In this document: positions 1,052 to 29,145 of the stretch, one piece after another
Layout of the letters: the number at the start of each line of letters is the position of its first letter
How positions within the stretch are numbered: position 1 is the stretch's first letter
Virus record (IMG/VR): IMGVR_UViG_3300027741_000166
Span: 1 to 33,209 of that record
DNA from: a virus
Strand: one strand, 5' to 3'
Length of the DNA: 33,209 bases
The notes under the pieces: model-generated
The model's database searches: none
The model's input: the letters and a program-made list of their open reading frames with translations, nothing else
Told to the model about the DNA's origin: nothing
Position numbers and translations under genes: made by a program

Positions 1052-3703
1052 TTAAAAATTCGCAGCATCCAAACGTGTCTTGAGTGACTTGATAATTGCG
1101 TCTTGGGTTTGCAACTTTTTAAGCAAAATAACAGTCAAACGTTCGTATTGAAAACCCTCAACCTCGCCATCATTGCCGCGAGTAATAAGTTCTTCAAAGC
1201 CAGCCTCTGCCGCTTCGTCAGCAATTAAGCCTAAATGATCTTTGGTTTGGTCGTCATTTTCGCATTTAGACTTGTAGCGAACTGGGCGCAAAAGGTTGAT
1301 GTCCATTTCTTCAAGATCACGTACATCTTGTTTATATTTTAAGGCGGAAGTTGAACGCTGGAAAGCGCCATCGCTGCGTACGTTAATGTTTGATGCCGTT
1401 GCTGTTGTTGAATTATATGTACCAACCGAATAAATTGTAGAAGTTGTAGCCGTAAACCAAGTGTTCCCTAGATTGTCTACATAAATCCGTGGAACTCCGT
1501 CCCCATCGGACAACACGATGTAGTTGCTTGCGGTGCGAATATCAAGGCCGCCTTGGTTGCCGGAGTAAGTTCCAAGAATGGTGTTTGCGCTACCTGTGGT
1601 CACAAGATTGCCAGCACCGTTCAAAAATCCAGCTTTGCCTGAGCCAACAAATGTGTTGCTTGAGCCGCTTGTCAATGAGAGTCCAGCACCCCAACCAATC
1701 GCAACGTTGGTGCTTCCAGTGACTGGGCCGACAGCCATTGCGGTGCTGCCAATTGCAATGTTTGTATTGCCCGAACTAATGCCACCACCAGCGGCGGCTC
1801 CCAACGCCGTATTGCCACTGCCAGTTGCCGAGTACAAGGAGGCATTGTAAAAACCCGGAACACTTGAACCAACGCCGATGTTTTGCGCCCCAGTTGCGCT
1901 ATAGCCCGCTTGGTAACCAATGTAAACACTGTTTCCAGAGGTTGTATTACTGTACCCCGCCAACATACCTACCGCAGTATTAAAGTCTCCGGTTGTGTTG
2001 CTGCTTAACGCAGAATCACCAAATGCAGAATTTCTTGATCCTGTAGTGTTGCTTTGCAATGCACCAGCACCACTGGCTGTGTTGTAGCCCCCAGTAGTAT
2101 TAACCCTAAGAGCATTAACGCCCAATGCTGTTAACTCCGTACCAGTGGTATTGCTATACCCCGCCTGATAACCAACAGCAGTGTTGTTGGAGGCTGTGGT
2201 ATTTTGGATTAAAGCACCCGCGCCAATTGCGGTATTGTTAGTGCCGGTAGTGTTGGCGTACAGAGCGCCGTTAAATACTCCGCTAGATGCTTGACCAATT
2301 GCGGTGTTGCCCGTGCCGGTTGTGTTTGATCCAAGCGCAGACCATCCAATCGCAACGTTAACCGATCCAGTGGTGTTGGACAATAACGCTTGATAGCCCA
2401 CCGCAGTTCCAGTACCAGTCGTATTGCTGTACATGCACTGATAGCCGACAGCAGTGTTGTTAGATGCCGTGGTGTTGGAAGTAAGGGCGCTTTCACCGAT
2501 TGCTGTGTTAAATGCGCCAGTTGTATTGTAATACATAACGGCATAACCGACTGCCGTGTTGCTACTTGCTGTTGTGTTTGCTTGCAGGGTACGAGCGCCA
2601 ATCCCCGTGTTATAGCTGCCAGTTGTGTTGGCCCCTAAAGTTCCATTAGCACCACCCGCAAGAGCAGCACCAACGGCAAGATTAAAAGTTCCTGTTGTGT
2701 TGGCATACAAACTGGCAGTACCAACAGCCGTGTTGTTGGAGGCAGTGTTGCTATACAAAGCACTTGCACCAAAAGCCGTTACGCCAATACCAGTGGTATT
2801 TGATATCAATGCACTTGCACCCACCGCAGTGTTTGTTACCACAGCGCCCCCGCCACGGCCTACGGTAACGCCGTAAATTAAAGCATCACCGTTTACATCA
2901 AGTTTTTGGGCTGGTGAATTTGTACCAATACCTACGTTGCCGCCGGAAAGAATTGTCATCCGACCTGTTGCCGCACTGTACGCATCGTTAACGGTTTCAA
3001 TCGACAAGTCACCGCTAGTTACATTACCAATACGCCATGTTTTTAAATTGGTTCCAGCATTACCGTTGTACAGTTGCAGATACGGCACGGTTCCAGATCC
3101 AGAAGCTGTTTTTGCGGCAATACCGCCGTTTGCAGTCAACGTGGCGTTTGCGAGTGAGCCTTGCCCGCCAACCGACAAAGTTGTACCGTCAAAAACCAAG
3201 TTGGCAGAATCAGTCTCCAGACCGCCTGTAGTGCTATACACTACACGGCCCGATGTTAAGCCAGCATTGGTGATTGAAGTAAACAAACCAGCGCCAGATG
3301 TGTTGCTGATCTTGATGAAATCAGAACCGTTCCAAGCGCAGACGGCAGCCTCACCCTTTGCAATGGTTACACCCGTGGTCGGGCCTGAAGCTCGAAGCAC
3401 AATAGATTGAGTGCCTGAGCTTGCATTGATGACCGTGTAAATCTTTGACTGCGCCGGGGCCGTGATGTACCGGGTGGCCGTTCCGCCTGCAGACCATAGC
3501 AGAATAGCTTCCCGCGACGTATTGGCTGTGCCAGAAGTTGTGGTTAGCGTGACATCAGCATCAGAGCTCAGCGTAGTTGTCCCTGCAATAGCGGAGTCCA
3601 AGAGCGAAGTGATGGAGTTGTTTACCACATCCCCCCAAGCGCCATTAAGTTCCCCTGTAACTGGCAGTGCCAATCCCAAGAGCGATGTATATGCTGTAGT
3701 CAT
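1052..3703 (-). CDS. Tail fibre with head-type repeats and C-terminal S74 chaperone/peptidase
   Basis: An 883-residue fibre. The N-terminus (MTTAYTSLLGLALPVTGELN, residues 1 to about 130) is of the type that attaches phage fibres to the particle. A spacer with one 'GGNVGIGTNSP' phrase (near 258) leads into about 20 tandem repeats of roughly 24 residues between about 290 and 715, built on 'NTAVGYxAxxxNTTG', a beta-structured repeat that resembles trimeric adhesin heads. Residues from about 784 to the end form an intramolecular chaperone of the peptidase S74 type. SALKYK keeps the spacing of the catalytic Ser and Lys, and the downstream 'INLLRPVRYK' and 'HLGLIADE' phrases are typical. In known members this domain drives trimerisation and then cleaves itself off. 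The C-terminal helix is a probable coiled coil. The fibre probably recognises the host surface. TGAGG precedes the ATG. Confidence 0.9.
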   Translation of the reverse strand: MTTAYTSLLGLALPVTGELNGAWGDVVNNSITSLLDSAIAGTTTLSSDADVTLTTTSGTANTSREAILLWSAGGTATRYITAPAQSKIYTVINASSGTQSIVLRASGPTTGVTIAKGEAAVCAWNGSDFIKISNTSGAGLFTSITNAGLTSGRVVYSTTGGLETDSANLVFDGTTLSVGGQGSLANATLTANGGIAAKTASGSGTVPYLQLYNGNAGTNLKTWRIGNVTSGDLSIETVNDAYSAATGRMTILSGGNVGIGTNSPAQKLDVNGDALIYGVTVGRGGGAVVTNTAVGASALISNTTGIGVTAFGASALYSNTASNNTAVGTASLYANTTGTFNLAVGAALAGGANGTLGANTTGSYNTGIGARTLQANTTASSNTAVGYAVMYYNTTGAFNTAIGESALTSNTTASNNTAVGYQCMYSNTTGTGTAVGYQALLSNTTGSVNVAIGWSALGSNTTGTGNTAIGQASSGVFNGALYANTTGTNNTAIGAGALIQNTTASNNTAVGYQAGYSNTTGTELTALGVNALRVNTTGGYNTASGAGALQSNTTGSRNSAFGDSALSSNTTGDFNTAVGMLAGYSNTTSGNSVYIGYQAGYSATGAQNIGVGSSVPGFYNASLYSATGSGNTALGAAAGGGISSGNTNIAIGSTAMAVGPVTGSTNVAIGWGAGLSLTSGSSNTFVGSGKAGFLNGAGNLVTTGSANTILGTYSGNQGGLDIRTASNYIVLSDGDGVPRIYVDNLGNTWFTATTSTIYSVGTYNSTTATASNINVRSDGAFQRSTSALKYKQDVRDLEEMDINLLRPVRYKSKCENDDQTKDHLGLIADEAAEAGFEELITRGNDGEVEGFQYERLTVILLKKLQTQDAIIKSLKTRLDAANF

Positions 3704-5820: not shown

Positions 5821-6477
5821 TTATGAGTCATGCAAATCAATGAGCGCCCAACTTGCATCATCTGCAGTGTCTATTGATTGCCATCCTGCGGATTCTGGAT
5901 TGTTGATAATTTGCCAATTTGCATCTTCAAAATCATTAATCAGGCTCCAGTAAAATATTCCAAACGAACCCAAGCTGCCATTTGCTTGTACTCCAATTAT
6001 CGCCCTAGACAGGGCTGGTGACAAGGTTCCTAAGAGCCCTGATGCAGAAGATCCTGTCAGGTCTGCTTGTTTGCCTTGAAAAACTGTCCCGGCAGCACCA
6101 GAGGCCGTTGCGCTTGTGAGTGCAACAGACACCACGGGGCCAACTGTGCCGACAAAACCATTTGCCGCATCTCCTGTTTGGCCTTCGCTTTTTGAGAACT
6201 GGACCGTGCCCAGCAAGCCTGCTGCAACAACTCCTGTAAGAGCAACGGATTTACTCTGCGTTACAGAGCCAACGGAGCCTGTGGCTTGAACCCCTGTAAG
6301 GATTGTGCCTTGAGTAACTGTGCCAGTTGAGCCTGTAGCCGAAACACCTGTCAGTGCAATCGTAATGCTAGGCGAGACCGTGCCTACCGAACCGGATGCG
6401 GCATTTCCTGTAACAGGAACAATTACCGATCCAAGCGCAGCAAACGGGACATCTGCAAATGGGGCTAATCCGAACAT
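5821..6477 (-). CDS. Repeat-rich virion-type protein with C-terminal Trp repeats
   Basis: A 218-residue protein. After MFGLAPFADVPFAALG come about seven imperfect repeats of 20-24 residues built on 'LTGVxATGSxGTVxx', covering residues ~17-175 and predicting a beta-solenoid or beta-sandwich stalk. The last 45 residues change character to four W-x-x-I units (WSLIND, WQIINN, WQSIDT, WALIDL) spaced 10-12 residues apart, with acidic linkers. It has a strong ribosome site (GGGGAGG) and sits between a small structural gene and the second fibre gene. No enzymatic motif is visible. A fibre-associated or baseplate-like role is inferred from position and repeat character. Confidence 0.7.
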   Translation of the reverse strand: MFGLAPFADVPFAALGSVIVPVTGNAASGSVGTVSPSITIALTGVSATGSTGTVTQGTILTGVQATGSVGSVTQSKSVALTGVVAAGLLGTVQFSKSEGQTGDAANGFVGTVGPVVSVALTSATASGAAGTVFQGKQADLTGSSASGLLGTLSPALSRAIIGVQANGSLGSFGIFYWSLINDFEDANWQIINNPESAGWQSIDTADDASWALIDLHDS

Positions 6478-6503
6478 GGCCCTCCCCAGACCTGAAAGTT
6501 AGG

Positions 6504-6980
6504 TCAAGTTGTAGCGAGGCGCAACAGTGCAGTGGTTGTTGTGTTGCTTGGCATGGTTAGTGTAAACGTACCAGCAGTGATGGTTTGCGAACCAAATGTG
6601 TGGACAGACACAGCCTTGTTGGACTGAGTGCTGTTATAAATCAACACAGTATCAAATGCAGTGCTCAACGTTACAGTGGAGTACACCAAACTTCCCGATG
6701 GTGTCCAGTACCCCACACCTGCCGTGGCCGACGAGTTAGTCGAGGCTGGAGCTGTTGCGTTGGTCACCGATACACCGCCAGCAGTGTATCCTGTGCCAGT
6801 CACTTCACCGGTTGCTGAGTACGCTGTAGTTGATGCATTCAACGTTGCTGAAGCCAAATACAAAGCGCCCTTGAATGTATCGGCAGTAGAGGCCGCACGA
6901 ATTGGAGATGCACCAAAGTTATGGGTGGCAGTCATCAATTCGCCCAAAAACGAAGTACACATGGATTGGGTATTACTCAC
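6504..6980 (-). CDS. Small structural-type protein, paralogue of the protein at 7606-8025
   Basis: A 158-residue protein that starts with GTG (complement of 6978-6980); the choice is supported by AAAGGAG eight bases upstream. Its first 8 bases overlap the end of the endonuclease gene. It is clearly homologous to the protein at 7606-8025: both have an 'ALY.A.A.LN..TT.YS...EV...GYTAGG' block, a central 'L.YN.....K.V.V..FGS' block and a C-terminal 'F..TMP.NT.T.AL.R' block. The composition is Thr/Ser/Ala-rich and beta-structured, as in virion proteins. It probably arose by tandem duplication. Exact function is unknown; a tail-tip, neck or decoration component is most likely given the neighbours. 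Confidence 0.75.
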   Translation of the reverse strand: MSNTQSMCTSFLGELMTATHNFGASPIRAASTADTFKGALYLASATLNASTTAYSATGEVTGTGYTAGGVSVTNATAPASTNSSATAGVGYWTPSGSLVYSTVTLSTAFDTVLIYNSTQSNKAVSVHTFGSQTITAGTFTLTMPSNTTTTALLRLATT

Positions 6981-7410
6981 TTGAATACTCCTTTAAATAA
7001 GAAATTGCCTTTGAAAGAAACTTTGGGTTGTCCAAAAACAAACCCAGCCCGGTGTTACATCTCATACAAAGCAGACCACGAACATCGCTGGTGGTATGGC
7101 AATGGTCAATAAAAAACATTTTAGTCCTACCGCCCGGTGTTTTGGTCGCACAAATTGCACATTTACCATTTTGTTGAGCCAGCAGAGCATCATATTGTTC
7201 GGGCGTAATACCATACGTCATCTTCAACTTGCTTCGACGCTCAATTTCCAAAACTTTTTCTTTGTTGCTGGCCCTATACGCTTTGTTGTAAGCCACACGA
7301 CATTTGGTGCATTGTGAAACAGGTTTCCCGGGCCGATGTGTTTTACGCACAGGAAACTCCGACAAGGATTTTTCTTCCTTGCAAACGGTGCATGTATGCG
7401 TAATTTTCAC
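6973..7410 (-). CDS. HNH endonuclease of the recombination endonuclease VII type
   Basis: A 145-residue zinc-binding nuclease. Cysteine pairs at C7/C10 and C34/C37 form an N-terminal zinc finger. The endonuclease VII core follows: 'YGITPEQYDALLAQQNGKCAIC' (residues 66-87), IDHCHTT with the catalytic-type His pair at 103 and 105, then 'VRGLLCMRCNTGLGLF' with C115, C118 and N119. The family cleaves or nicks DNA; in phages free-standing copies are usually homing-type nucleases, though T4 endonuclease VII itself resolves branched DNA. It starts with GTG after AAGG and ends with an 8-nt overlap into the next gene. It separates two paralogous structural genes, which suggests insertion into a duplicated locus. 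Confidence 0.88.
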   Translation of the reverse strand: MKITHTCTVCKEEKSLSEFPVRKTHRPGKPVSQCTKCRVAYNKAYRASNKEKVLEIERRSKLKMTYGITPEQYDALLAQQNGKCAICATKTPGGRTKMFFIDHCHTTSDVRGLLCMRCNTGLGLFLDNPKFLSKAISYLKEYSSE

Positions 7411-7417
7411 AAATGCC

Positions 7418-7609
7418 TTAAAAAGAAGCAGCTTCAGCGCCTATAAATACAGGCGCTTTTTTTAGAGTGACATGCGCGGATCGGTGAACAAGTTCTTCGC
7501 CCAGCCAATATTCCACCCATGTGGTGTATTCATCGTCATTATCCACAACACCTTCTTGCTTCACAAGAAGAGAATCGTCCATGTCGCCTTTGGTGGTGGT
7601 AACAATCAA
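7418..7609 (-). CDS. Small acidic phage protein, 63 aa
   Basis: A 63-residue protein starting MIVTTTKGDMDDSLLVKQEG and containing 'WVEYWLGEELVHRSAHVTLKK', a pattern that suggests a small beta-sheet protein. The start codon is TTG: it lies six bases after GGAG, and the TTGA sequence also contains the stop codon of the upstream gene, so translation is coupled. I recall very similar short genes following this structural-protein family in other phages, but know no function. It precedes the endonuclease gene by 7 bp. The overlap and the ribosome site make it a real gene despite its size. Confidence 0.72.
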   Translation of the reverse strand: MIVTTTKGDMDDSLLVKQEGVVDNDDEYTTWVEYWLGEELVHRSAHVTLKKAPVFIGAEAASF

Positions 7610-8025
7610 TTTGAACTCCTGATAAGCGCAGACGTTGATGTGTTGGCTGGCATGGTAATAAGAAACGTAGTTTTTGAAGATTTGTCAGAACCAAAATCTA
7701 AAACCGCCACCGATTTGTTGCCCTTGCTTGCGTTGTACATTAAAGCGCAGCGAGCAGTGATCGCGCCCGTCCAGCTTACGTTGCTCCAGTTAGCGTAGGC
7801 TGTGTAGCCATCGCTGCTGATCGCTACGCCGGTCATAATTTGACCGCCTGCTGTATAGCCAGACGCTACAACTTCATTCGCACTAGAGTAAACGGTCGTA
7901 GCTTCGTTTAAATCTGCGGCAGCGGTATACAAGGCAATCTTGATTGTGTCGGTAGACAGGTCGTGAATACCCTGATACAGCTCTTTTTTGAAGCTGGTGG
8001 TTTGAGTTTGCAGGATGGAACTCAT
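7606..8025 (-). CDS. Small structural-type protein (paralogue of 6504-6980)
   Basis: A 139-residue protein with a predicted helical start (MSSILQTQTTSFKKELYQGIHDL) followed by beta-rich sequence 'TDTIKIALYTAAADLNEATTVYSS' and 'GYTAGGQ', ending 'FLITMPANTSTSALIRSSN'. It shares these blocks with the protein at 6504-6980 and so belongs to the same family. Its ATG overlaps the stop of the adaptor gene (ATGA), which couples its translation to adaptor synthesis. The family is common next to neck/adaptor genes in phages with SU10-like heads. I infer a virion protein near the head-tail junction or tail tip; no enzymatic motif is visible. Confidence 0.75.
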   Translation of the reverse strand: MSSILQTQTTSFKKELYQGIHDLSTDTIKIALYTAAADLNEATTVYSSANEVVASGYTAGGQIMTGVAISSDGYTAYANWSNVSWTGAITARCALMYNASKGNKSVAVLDFGSDKSSKTTFLITMPANTSTSALIRSSN

Positions 8026-8684
8026 GACACTTGAACCCTAACTTGTCCGTCTCGGTAAGCATCACCGCGTTGTTTGCCATCACCCAAGTTCTTAAGCAAT
8101 GCAATTGCTTGGACGTAACGATCTGAGTAAAGCTGAACCATGTCCGGCTCACCCTTGATATAAGTGATTGCCTCGCACATAGTACCGTACAGCAATGCTG
8201 AATCAAAGTTATCGCCCAACCATGTTGTGTTAGAAGTTACAATTGATTCAGGATAATAGTAATAGTGCAGCTCAGCCCCGTAAGAGGCGTCTGGTGTAGG
8301 GCCAACAATGAAAGACAATTCATTGGTGATGGTACTTCCAGAAACTGTTGGGCCAAAAATAGCGTAATGCTTTGGCTTACCTGTGGTCGCTGGGTTGGGA
8401 TAAGCTTCACGCATGAAGTTTACGTCTTTGTTCAACAGGAACAAATACTCGCCGCCAGCAGCCGGATAAATAGCCAACGAATACGTAGACATAAAATCGT
8501 CAGGGCACGACAAATACTTGTTGCCACTGCTCAACACGCCCGTCACATTTTTCCGCAAATTAGAAAGCTGAACGGTGTTGTATATACGCTGTTCAGCTTG
8601 CTTAATGAACGTGTTCATGTCTACCGTGGGAAACGTGTTCTCACAGTAATCACTCACCAAGGTGACAAGTTCGGTGTATGTCAT
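8022..8684 (-). CDS. Head-tail adaptor protein, SU10-like
   Basis: A 220-residue protein. The N-terminal helix pair 'MTYTELVTLVSDYCENTFPTVDMNTFIKQAEQRIYNTV' is the hallmark of the phage adaptor family exemplified by phage SU10 (T7 gp11-like position), which sits between portal and tail nozzle. A beta-rich middle contains 'LSCPDDFMSTYSLAI', and the C-terminal helices (DSALLYGTMCEAITYIKGEPDMVQLYSDRYVQAIALLKN) complete the fold. Its start overlaps the preceding gene by ATGA and its stop overlaps the next gene the same way. This is one of the better arguments that the particle is a short-tailed virus. The family name is from memory of the motif pattern. Confidence 0.78.
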   Translation of the reverse strand: MTYTELVTLVSDYCENTFPTVDMNTFIKQAEQRIYNTVQLSNLRKNVTGVLSSGNKYLSCPDDFMSTYSLAIYPAAGGEYLFLLNKDVNFMREAYPNPATTGKPKHYAIFGPTVSGSTITNELSFIVGPTPDASYGAELHYYYYPESIVTSNTTWLGDNFDSALLYGTMCEAITYIKGEPDMVQLYSDRYVQAIALLKNLGDGKQRGDAYRDGQVRVQVS

Positions 8685-8947
8685 GCCATCGGGCCTCGGG
8701 CCATCAAGCCTTTAGTTGCTGCGCCAGTACCACGGATTTTAATGCCGCTGGTTTTGATAGGCTCGTCGCCTGCCGACTTGCTTTCAGCGCCAATACTAAC
8801 GTCCAACGTATCAAGCTTGCTACGGTTTGGGCCTTTGCCGGGATTTGTTTCCATTGTGACGGCTTTGCCGTTCATGGTGTGCGGCTTAGCATAAACGCTG
8901 GCATCGCCAACTTCCTTGCCCATCATTTTTTTGCTAAATGTAGCCAT
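8681..8947 (-). CDS. Small basic phage protein, 88 aa
   Basis: An 88-residue, Lys/Gly/Met-rich protein with few hydrophobic residues, probably disordered in isolation. It has the phrases 'MNGKAVTMETNPGKGPNR' and 'KSAGDEPIKTSGIKIRGTGAATKGLMARGPMA'. The phrase 'TSGIKIRGTGAATKGLMARGPMA' is familiar from many phage genomes, always as a small protein next to neck genes. It is translationally coupled to the adaptor gene through an ATGA overlap. The function is unknown. The basic, flexible composition suggests a packaged DNA-contacting or assembly protein, but that is inference only. Confidence 0.68.
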   Translation of the reverse strand: MATFSKKMMGKEVGDASVYAKPHTMNGKAVTMETNPGKGPNRSKLDTLDVSIGAESKSAGDEPIKTSGIKIRGTGAATKGLMARGPMA

Positions 8948-26795: not shown

Positions 26796-27872
26796 ATGTC
26801 AGATATCAAATTCACCCGCCGCGTCAACTTCACAGAAACGGTTGACTTGCTTCTCAACTCGGGCCACAACAGCGTTCACCTGCAAGGCGAGCCGGGCGTT
26901 GGCAAGACGGCTATTCAGGATGTACTGGTTGAACGTACAGGGTTCCGTAAAGTCTATATCGACGGGCCGAACACCGATGTGGGTCAGGCGGGCATGCCCA
27001 TCCCCAACCACACCTCGCGTACGCTGGACTTCTACCCTGCCGATTACTTTGGTTTGCATCTCAACGTGCCGCAGATCATCATGATCGACGAGTGGACCAA
27101 GACCGATGACTATGTGCGTAACACGCTACACCCGCTGTTGCACGAACGCCGCTTGGGTACATTCAACCTGCACCCAGAGACTATCGTGTTCACAACGGGC
27201 AACATGGACGGGGACGGAGTAGGCGACAGTGCGAAGGCGCACACTCGTAACAGGCAGACGTGGATGACCTACATGAAGCCCACTGCTGAAGAATGGCTGG
27301 TGTGGGCGGGCAATGCGGGCGTGGCCCCCGAGATCATGGCGTGGGTCACCGAGTATCCGCACTGTTTGGCATCGTACATGGACGGTGGACAGAAAGAGAA
27401 TCCATATATCTTCAACCCGTCGGACGCATCGCAGGTTGCGTTTGTCTCGCCTCGTTCGTTGTTCAAAGCATCGCACTGGGTTAGCGTTCGTGATCGCATC
27501 ACACAGAACTCGTTGATTGCGGCGCTCGATGGCACTGTGGGTATCTCTGCGTCTCGTGATTTGCAAGCATACATCACGCTTGCCGATCAGCTCCCGACCC
27601 GTGACGCTATCGAGCGTGACCCCGATGGTGCTGTGGTTCCGACCAGCCCTGCGGCTCAATGTATCTTGATGTTCAAGGCCGTGACTGCTACCAAACGGGA
27701 GACGTTCGGTACATGGATGCGCTATGTCAAGCGTATGCCGAAAGAAGCACAAGCGTTGTTCATCAACAGCTTGCTTGAAGTCAAGACGCAGAAGGCATGG
27801 GCGCTTGCTCATCCTGCGTTCGTAGCGTGGGCTCGTGAGAATCAGTATATGTTTGCTGGCTTGAAAGGATAA
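26796..27872 (+). CDS. MoxR-type AAA+ ATPase
   Basis: A 358-residue AAA+ protein. Walker A is GEPGVGKT (31-38), Walker B 'IIMIDE' (94-99), and a sensor-type 'TTGN' lies at 133-136, followed by 'NRQTWMTYMKPTAEEWLVW' where MoxR proteins carry their arginine-finger region. 'GMPIPN' (67-72) replaces the usual pore-loop segment. MoxR ATPases remodel or load partner proteins and are typically encoded next to a VWA-domain protein, as here (4 bp before the next gene). In phages and in some plasmids and integrative elements the pair recurs without a settled function. The ribosome site is AGGAAA. Confidence is high for the fold and low for the role. Confidence 0.9.
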   Translation: MSDIKFTRRVNFTETVDLLLNSGHNSVHLQGEPGVGKTAIQDVLVERTGFRKVYIDGPNTDVGQAGMPIPNHTSRTLDFYPADYFGLHLNVPQIIMIDEWTKTDDYVRNTLHPLLHERRLGTFNLHPETIVFTTGNMDGDGVGDSAKAHTRNRQTWMTYMKPTAEEWLVWAGNAGVAPEIMAWVTEYPHCLASYMDGGQKENPYIFNPSDASQVAFVSPRSLFKASHWVSVRDRITQNSLIAALDGTVGISASRDLQAYITLADQLPTRDAIERDPDGAVVPTSPAAQCILMFKAVTATKRETFGTWMRYVKRMPKEAQALFINSLLEVKTQKAWALAHPAFVAWARENQYMFAGLKG

Positions 27873-27876
27873 CAAA

Positions 27877-29145
27877 ATGATTAAGAAACTAACCGCTGAA
27901 CAGCGCATAGAGTTGGTACACGTTAGCCTCATGCGCTCGTCTGAGTTCGCGTTGTTCGCGGGCTTGTTCATGGTGGGCAAGACGAGCGTGGTCGACCTGC
28001 CGATCACTGCCCGCACCAACGGGCGTGACGCACAGTACGGGCGCGAGTTCGTGAATGGGTTGAGTGACAAGGAGCTTGCCTTTCTTGTGCTGCATGAGAA
28101 TATGCACAAGGCATACCGCCACCTAACAACGTGGAAATCGTTGCATGACATCGACCATAACTGTGCAAATCATGCGTGTGACTACGTCATCAACATTCAG
28201 CTCGTCGACCTCGACCCGAACGAGAAGCTGATCGCCATACCCCGTTTAGACGGTAAGGTGATGGGCTTGCTCGACCCTGCGTATCGTGGGATGGATACAC
28301 GCCAAGTGTTTGATATCCTGCGCAAGAAGAAGAAAGAAAAGGGCGGCGAAGAAGGTGAGGAAGGTGAAGACGGCGGCGACGAAGGTGGAGTCGGCGGCAA
28401 AGGGAAAGATCGTCAAGATGGCGATAAGTCCGGGCATGGCGGGTTTGACGAGCATGACTGGAAGGAAGCAGTTGATGGCATGACCGAGGAGGAGAAGCGA
28501 GAACTTGCTGACGACATCGACCAAGCCCTGCGGCAAGGCGGTATCTATGCGGGCAAGGTCGGTGGCAAGATGAGCCGCGAGATGGCAGAGATGCTGACAC
28601 CCAAGGTCAACTGGCGTGAGGTGTTGCGTAGGTTCATCAAGACCAGCCTGAAAGATCGTGATTCTCCGTCATGGCGCAAGGCTCACAAGAACTACCTGTG
28701 GCAAGACATCATCCTGCCGTCGATCATGGGCAAGCGCATCAAGCACTTGGCTGTGGGTCTCGATACATCGGGTTCCATACAAGGGCCGATCTTGGATGCG
28801 TTCCTGTCGGAGTTGAACAAGATCATCAAAGACGTGAATCCAGATCGCGTCGATGTGATGTATTGGGATACTGAAGTAGCAGGTCATGAGACCTATACGG
28901 GCGCGAAGGGTGACATCGTGAAACGCACCAACCCTGTGGGTGGTGGCGGCACTGACCCCGACTGCGTACCTGTGTTCATGAAAGAGAACGGCATAGCCCC
29001 TGATGCGCTTGTCATTCTCTCGGATGGGCATATGCACAGTGAACCGGCGAACTGGGTCGGGGGTAAGTATCCGGTGCTGTGGTGCATCATCGGCAACGAT
29101 AGCTACACGCCACCCCGTGGCCAGCTTGTCAATGTGAAGGAGTAA
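27877..29145 (+). CDS. VWA-domain protein with N-terminal HExxH metallopeptidase-like region
   Basis: A 422-residue partner of the MoxR-type ATPase. The N-terminal domain contains 'FLVLHENMHKAYRH': HENMH at residues 73-77 fits the zinc-peptidase HExxH pattern of the DUF2201 N-terminal family, followed by 'HNCANHACDYVIN' which may add a ligand. An acidic/Gly-rich linker (about 147-190, 'KKKEKGGEEGEEGEDGGDEGG') separates the domains. The C-terminal VWA domain has a full MIDAS: 'LDTSGS' (295-300), a Thr in 'GGGGTD' (about 356-361) and 'LSDG' (381-384). Such proteins are substrates or adaptors for MoxR ATPases. The start has AAAGGA, which overlaps the ATPase stop. Whether the metallopeptidase is active is untested. 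Confidence 0.88.
   Translation: MIKKLTAEQRIELVHVSLMRSSEFALFAGLFMVGKTSVVDLPITARTNGRDAQYGREFVNGLSDKELAFLVLHENMHKAYRHLTTWKSLHDIDHNCANHACDYVINIQLVDLDPNEKLIAIPRLDGKVMGLLDPAYRGMDTRQVFDILRKKKKEKGGEEGEEGEDGGDEGGVGGKGKDRQDGDKSGHGGFDEHDWKEAVDGMTEEEKRELADDIDQALRQGGIYAGKVGGKMSREMAEMLTPKVNWREVLRRFIKTSLKDRDSPSWRKAHKNYLWQDIILPSIMGKRIKHLAVGLDTSGSIQGPILDAFLSELNKIIKDVNPDRVDVMYWDTEVAGHETYTGAKGDIVKRTNPVGGGGTDPDCVPVFMKENGIAPDALVILSDGHMHSEPANWVGGKYPVLWCIIGNDSYTPPRGQLVNVKE

Follow-up and report, generated by a model that had tools for sequence, protein, structure and literature searches.

The question raised by the virus record IMGVR_UViG_3300027741_000166, of which a stretch of 33,209 bases (the window) was analysed, is how a gene for an Endonuclease VII-type (EndoVII) nuclease came to lie between two paralogous genes, here called B and A. 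All genes of the locus are on the minus strand in the order adaptor gene, B, s63, nuclease, A, with B transcribed first and A downstream of the nuclease. An earlier note on this DNA had described a gene of 63 amino acids (aa) and a nuclease with full zinc and catalytic residues between the paralogues, and the coordinates and residues were confirmed here. We consider it very probable that the nuclease gene is a mobile, free-standing homing endonuclease gene of the EndoVII/DHHRN type and that it occupies codon 2 of A, the downstream copy in a B/A duplication that predates it. The exact insertion point, the presence of several nuclease families there and the altered start codon of A go beyond the earlier note, which had no relatives to compare.

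The nuclease and its insertion point

The nuclease gene (6973..7410, minus strand; GTG start, 145 aa) encodes a protein that matches PF02945 Endonuclease_7 (3.5e-26) and phrog_2633 (8.9e-42) and includes a complete DHHRN motif (CX2-4C, D-H-x-H, R, CX2C-N). When 20 nuclease proteins selected by hand, that of the window included, were aligned, the zinc cysteines (C84, C87, C115 and C118), the catalytic residues (D102, H103, H105, R111 and N119) and a second, N-terminal set of cysteines (C7, C10, C34 and C37) were all invariant, and the median ratio of non-synonymous to synonymous differences (pN/pS) in sampled pairs from the window's nuclease clade was 0.17. The motif is C-terminal, at residues 84–119 of 145, and the protein ends 26 residues after N119. 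According to PMC6083498, the motif is mostly C-terminal in the endonuclease clade of DHHRN proteins and N-terminal in the resolvase clade. The nearest solved relative is Hpy99I (PDB 3fc3), both by sequence (E 1e-13, residues 83–143) and by predicted fold (E 2e-6, with a poor whole-chain superposition, root-mean-square deviation 15). T4 Endonuclease VII matches the fold over 88 columns (deviation 3.2–3.7), its sequence alignment is confined to its residues 11–67, and Hpy99I scores far better. The 27 TAL-repeat chains listed between these two in the sequence search align over at most 38 residues outside the motif and were taken as chance matches. The C-terminal part of a T4 gp49-type resolvase has a dimerising role, and the layout of such a resolvase, an N-terminal motif followed by a further C-terminal part, is not that of the window nuclease. 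A search of bacterial genomes found no relative of the nuclease, and its sequence features point to a probable free-standing homing endonuclease of the DHHRN type.

The insertion point was read from near-isogenic alleles with an insert (filled) and without one (empty). L170, filled with a nuclease of the Pfam family HNH_3, and the empty L179 share 98–100 % identity in 60-column bins over 780 columns upstream and 540 columns downstream; the insert falls after the ATGGC of A, and the shared sequence resumes from codon 2. A second pair, L097 (EndoVII) and L174 (empty), has the same insertion point. These alignments place the insertion inside codon 2 of A (ATGGC^AAAYAC). The EndoVII inserts are 437–470 nucleotides (nt) long and consist almost wholly of the nuclease open reading frame (ORF), and Rfam found nothing in positions 6400–8700 of the window (E up to 1) or, at gathering scores, in L010, L097, L170 and L207.

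For comparisons across the locus, a table of 134 distinct rows was compiled, in which s63 and A are on one contig with a gap of at most 700 nt, the match to A begins no later than residue 8 and ends no earlier than residue 140, and each distinct first 390 nt of A is represented once. Truncated contigs such as L088, L092, L096 and L269, as well as contig L207 (see below), are outside this table. In the 23 HNH_3 rows, the nuclease starts with ATGGC (15), GTGGC (6) or TTGGC (2), which are the start signals of A in empty alleles, and it is as xTGGC that the HNH_3 family appears to have taken them over. In the window, an AAGG that adjoins the stop codon of s63 (7416..7419, minus strand) precedes the nuclease; in nuclease-free relatives this position is part of the Shine-Dalgarno sequence of A. 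An AAGG was found in the 14 nt before the nuclease in ten of the 11 rows of the window's EndoVII clade, all but L094. As judged from these motifs, the nuclease is usually placed behind the old ribosome-binding site of A.

More than one kind of nuclease is found at this junction. In a scan with the window's nuclease (41 loci), all 16 close EndoVII relatives (76–100 % identity) are found at the s63/A junction; the one at 100 % is the sequence of the window itself, present on a further contig. The same holds for all 30 close relatives (75–100 %) from a scan of 43 loci for which the query was the L010 protein, a nuclease at the same junction that matches Pfam HNH_3 (2.5e-10). A second EndoVII clade, about 45 % identical to that of the window, also occurs at the site (L154, L274, L280 and L297), and in L207 a GIY-YIG gene (PF01541, 1.5e-6) stands there ahead of an HNH_3 3′ end. 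As DHHRN and HNH are families within one superfamily of nuclease folds according to PMC6083498, EndoVII and HNH_3 are distinct families yet not wholly unrelated. By their sequence matches, nucleases of at least three families occupy the same point at the start of A.

The start codon of A

In the window, A (6504..6980, minus strand; 158 aa) starts with GTG. The 8-nt overlap of the nuclease with this GTG start, which the earlier note had claimed, is real; it consists of GTGAGTAA (6973..6980, minus strand), which holds the altered start codon and codon 2 of A and overlaps the stop codon of the nuclease, and the corresponding empty alleles mostly have ATGGCA. Of the 88 empty alleles in the table, 83 have ATG and five have GTG as the start codon of A, whereas in the 15 EndoVII-filled alleles it starts with GTG (13) or TTG (2) and in the 23 HNH_3-filled alleles with ATC (17) or ATT (6). 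ATG is the start codon in none of the 38 filled alleles, and the eight rows with a footprint or scar all have GTG, TTG, ATC or ATT. The G at the third position is present in every one of the 88 empty alleles.

Around the start of A, the final 16 nt of the HNH_3 inserts copy an empty start region. All 23 differ from their nearest empty allele in the G of ATG, and ten of them differ from the empty allele L065 in nothing else; none of 1980 random 16-mers used as a control was closer than five differences. In the window, a probable Shine-Dalgarno sequence of A, AAAGGAG (6988..6994, minus strand), lies within the last codons of the nuclease and encodes part of its YLKE end, which is where the EndoVII inserts encode the new ribosome-binding site. 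As read from the sequence, each insert provides A, at its 3′ end, with an altered start codon as well as a new ribosome-binding site.

A is under purifying selection, with median pN/pS values in sampled pairs of 0.18 for empty, 0.21 for HNH_3-filled and 0.23 for EndoVII-filled alleles. It would still be translated, from GUG or UUG in alleles of the window type and, perhaps weakly, from AUC or AUU in the HNH_3 alleles. ATT and ATC start infC in E. coli and Streptomyces and are repressed there by IF3 (PMC5472188); by analogy, initiation at ATC or ATT of A would be possible but probably weak. Alternatively, initiation may be internal, at Met7, a residue shared by all 46 rows with an insert or a scar and by 84 of the 88 empty ones. 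Codons 3–5 of A encode N-T-Q with synonymous changes only in all 38 filled rows, and no ribosome-binding site was seen before Met7, both of which speak against internal initiation.

The 3′ ends were also used as DNA patterns. That of HNH_3 recovered 24 contigs, 18 with the nuclease, five without it and one with the GIY-YIG gene (L207), and that of EndoVII recovered 34, of which 19 have an EndoVII gene, 12 do not and three match none of the queries. To judge from these contigs, loss of the HNH_3 gene leaves a scar that retains the altered start of A. L205 and L217 are flanked by sequence that is 90–100 % identical per bin over 780 columns upstream and 93–100 % over 420 columns downstream, and L205 has a 102-nt remnant with the nuclease 3′ end and the ATC start of A, likely a record of nuclease loss.

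Mobility, mechanism and rival explanations

The distribution of the nucleases was examined on trees of the adaptor gene, which include 130 of the 134 rows (L091, L126, L137 and L199 are missing). The filled rows were for the most part recovered by scans that targeted nucleases or their 3′ ends; the 95 tree rows that came from the A and B scans comprise 85 empty alleles, three with HNH_3, three with EndoVII, two HNH_3 scars and two EndoVII footprints. For EndoVII, the 14 rows imply 13 changes and are not clustered (the shuffled mean is 13.5, and 220 of 500 shuffles were as low), and trees constrained to monophyly were rejected both for the window's clade (approximately unbiased test, p-AU 0.0002) and for HNH_3 (p-AU 0.0001), using a quick tree. 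The occupancy by HNH_3, though somewhat clustered, is far from a single clade. In L218 and L224 the adaptor genes are 61 % identical and the nucleases 99 %. Over all 91 EndoVII pairs, the nuclease is more alike than the adaptor gene in 48, a comparison that is uninformative because two clades are mixed, and it was hence repeated for each clade. Within the window's clade, the nuclease is the more alike in 43 of 45 pairs; among HNH_3 pairs this is so in 245 of 253.

In the mechanism that we propose, co-infection would allow the enzyme to cleave empty alleles in their conserved start region, and repair would then copy the insert into them. The start codon of A would be part of the cleavage target, and the changed start would make a filled allele immune. 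Because A in a packed operon requires a ribosome-binding site, the insert would carry one at its own 3′ end and so rebuild the start signals of A. Cleavage, immunity and translation of A are what we infer from sequence comparison. More tentatively, and with slightly less than even confidence, we suggest that the start of A is a shared landing site for different nuclease families, whose inserts seize the start signals of A, rebuild its start and protect themselves by the changed codon; that HNH_3 and GIY-YIG nucleases can trade the 3′ adaptor with its AUC start, which stays behind as a scar once the nuclease is lost; and that A is possibly under IF3 control, as infC is.

Several observations weigh against homing into the start codon as the explanation. 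At the insert edges, ATGGC is retained on the 5′ side in one of the 15 EndoVII rows (L097), the 8-nt overlap is found in 11 of the 15 EndoVII rows and four of the 23 HNH_3 rows, and the flanking tract beside the insert is changed in the isogenic pairs L213/L158 and L154/L196, not in L170/L179. The EndoVII 3′ ends are not clear copies of an empty start region, since 4–7 of their 16 positions depart from the nearest empty allele. The rows share ancestry, because copies inherit a single 3′ end; the start codon contrast therefore amounts to two or three independent cases, and a Fisher value, which presupposes independent rows, was set aside. L207 shares the HNH_3 3′ end and is no independent case. 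A common origin of the two EndoVII clades is weakly supported (71/48), and the 12 of 34 contigs that are presumed EndoVII footprints could be pre-insertion alleles instead. On the adaptor tree, HNH_3 is somewhat clustered (the 23 rows imply 18 changes, whereas the shuffled mean is 21.5 and eight of 500 shuffles were as low), and all states together require 36 changes against 42.2 (one of 200). The nuclease is more alike than A in only 34 of the 45 pairs of the window's clade, the genes differing in rate, and in L218 and L224 A is also 99 % shared, indicating that A can travel with the nuclease. Mosaicism among phages, without any action of the nuclease, could likewise scatter the gene.

Phage modules are shuffled, and the main rival, which we regard as unlikely, is that the nuclease is cargo of such ordinary mosaic recombination, in swaps of tail modules, and has no homing activity. 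It would account for the joint transfer of A and nuclease in L218 and L224 and for the clustering of HNH_3, but not for the difference between L170 and L179, which at this locus is the insert alone, nor for one point common to nucleases of three families. Passive cargo would also leave the changed start codon of A unexplained, and the invariant catalytic residues and low pN/pS of the nuclease argue against it. Still less probable is that the nuclease is a resident phage enzyme missing from many relatives through loss, one that, like T4 gp49, would resolve Holliday junctions or serve in packaging. Membership of PF02945 and the fold match to T4 Endonuclease VII are in keeping with such an enzyme, and podoviral Endo VII proteins have been proposed as resolvases (PMC6083498). 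A resident enzyme would not be expected to share its position with other nuclease families, and among the 95 adaptor-tree rows that the A and B scans supplied, just three have EndoVII of either clade. This low occupancy and the C-terminal position of the motif, in a protein that ends soon after the nuclease domain and for which Hpy99I scores far above T4 Endo VII, make a resident resolvase unlikely.

The nuclease does lie between the two paralogues, and beside homing into a duplicated locus the earlier note had offered a duplication driven by the nuclease, for which there is a precedent in the homing enzyme SegB, which drives segmental amplification in T6 (PMC13096335). The two flanking proteins are paralogues, as that note had proposed, sharing 38 % identity over 152 columns (BLASTP, 80.5 bits, E 5e-25) and both matching phrog_644 (A 2.8e-11, B 2.3e-16). 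However, in a protein tree of 32 A and 44 B rows they form separate clades (SH-aLRT support 100), and both copies are present in nuclease-free relatives; hence the duplication, as read from tree and gene content, is older than the nuclease and independent of it. The B scan, which kept the best 80 of 554 relatives (the A scan kept the best 80 of 586), includes 54 loci with s63 and A after B, 18 with neither and eight that are too short or partial, and the nuclease of the window is present in three of the 54 (L001, which is the window's own sequence, L040 and L043). The DNA between the copies in nuclease-free relatives is the homologous s63 gene, not the unrelated sequence that the earlier note had named as counting against its reading. 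Together with the scatter of the nuclease on the phage tree, these findings favour homing into the duplicated locus; a duplication stimulated by the nuclease is highly improbable and was rejected on the A/B tree. The least probable of the alternatives, splicing of the insert from A as a group I intron or an intein, would suit an insertion inside the coding sequence, and in L097 and 15 of the 23 HNH_3 rows ATGGC and AAAYAC would rejoin in frame. It was rejected on the anatomy of the insert, in which the EndoVII ORF leaves no space for an intron core, a new ribosome-binding site precedes A and the upstream ATGGC is missing in 14 of 15 EndoVII rows, and on the negative Rfam searches.

Homing endonucleases with some of these properties are already known, and the comparisons that follow are with the available parts of the papers cited. 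F-CphI of cyanophage S-PM2 (PMC6083498) is likewise phage-borne and free-standing with a C-terminal Endo VII motif, and the D, H, H, R and N are all present in the window nuclease, which differs in its position at the start of a tail-type gene, where Rfam detected no intron. Hpy99I, the best match among solved structures, is a restriction enzyme, and its Helicobacter relatives adjoin a methylase (PMC6083498). The free-standing seg and mob endonucleases of T4 (PMC2988022) are also intergenic and several overlap a neighbour, with possible translational coupling, but the overlap described there is with the upstream gene, and the passages available describe no capture of downstream start signals or change of start codon. 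In Hafnia phage Ca (PMC8861465), a homing endonuclease gene (HEG) forms a 397-bp insert that overlaps both neighbours and is present or absent within one phage stock; it is of the HNH type and lies upstream of a terminase gene, which gets an ATG start. HNH endonucleases of Skunavirus (PMC12724721) form clades tied to insertion location, with distinct nucleases at the same approximate location, but the locations were mapped to neighbouring core genes rather than to the nucleotide, and all are HNH. The ShiLan element (PMC11855218), an HNH homing insert in a coding sequence with a GTG start and a TAA stop in its last four bases, is open in frame within a methylase gene, whereas here A must start anew after the insert. 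Overlapping nuclease genes, shared approximate locations and homing inserts within coding sequence are therefore not new. A literature search covering titles, the beginnings of abstracts and passages found, among the matches listed, no homing nucleases inserted in a start codon and no non-AUG starts left by them. What appears to be new is the combination, in which several nuclease families share one nucleotide position within a start codon and the start is regularly altered.

Free-standing homing genes have usually been described in gaps between genes, whereas here near-isogenic genomes of uncultivated phages allow the exact point to be read, and it is a start codon. This suggests a route by which such parasites could enter a packed genome without cutting themselves, and a rule that can be tested, namely that the parasite aims at a highly conserved gene sequence, stays immune and leaves the gene under selection. 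It would also provide natural alleles of a virion gene that seemingly start at AUC or AUU, with scars as a record of past invasions. If true, selfish DNA has lastingly re-set the translation of a virion gene.

The paralogues and other features

Paralogue B (7606..8025, minus strand) has an ATG start and encodes a probable tail- or connector-type protein of 139 aa. The earlier note had called the paralogues structural, for which Foldseek alone, using a model of B (pLDDT, the model's confidence score, 80), gave no match at E 0.001 or better. When the Foldseek candidates were re-aligned to the model, a T4 baseplate chain (Z 11.8), the GP4 fibre-tail adaptor (Z 7.1) and neck/connector chains (Z 6.3) were recovered; by the tool's own warning, Z values below 8 may reflect a common arrangement. 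On these re-alignments, A and B are plausibly small tail or connector proteins, and the structural label is plausible to that extent. The gene upstream of B (8684-8022, minus strand) matches the SU10 adaptor PF24175.

The s63 gene (7418..7609, minus strand; 63 aa, function unassigned) has a TTG start that overlaps the stop codon of B. Its presence tracks that of A, the two being found together in 54 and both missing in 18 of the 80 B loci. Neither s63 nor the DNA of 6400–8700 had a match in isolated phages, while protein matches at <60 % identity were found in isolated phage records for B in 92 and for A in four.

Other insertions were seen in this operon. In L044 (1677-2174; weak HNH_4 match, below cut-off) and L048 (2325-2957; no Pfam match, related to the L044 gene), a nuclease-like gene lies between the adaptor gene and B and overlaps the ATG of B by 4 nt at its end, and L095 has partial matches to these genes in the same place. 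The start of B may also serve nucleases as a landing site. Between B and s63, L170 has a gene for 237 aa (1011-1724) whose glycosyltransferase matches are weak and fall below cut-off. A second EndoVII-type protein, 32–33 % identical to that of the window, is encoded far upstream of the adaptor gene in L030 (867), L277 (441) and L295 (1552).

Elsewhere in the window, an AAA ATPase gene is followed on the plus strand (26796-29145) by a DUF2201 metallopeptidase/VWA-like gene, which is labelled HNH endonuclease by PHROGs and DUF2201 by Pfam. A long fibre- or spike-like protein (1052-3703) contains many repeats of the NTTG..NTAxGxxAL type and has a Peptidase_S74 match, just below cut-off, at its end.

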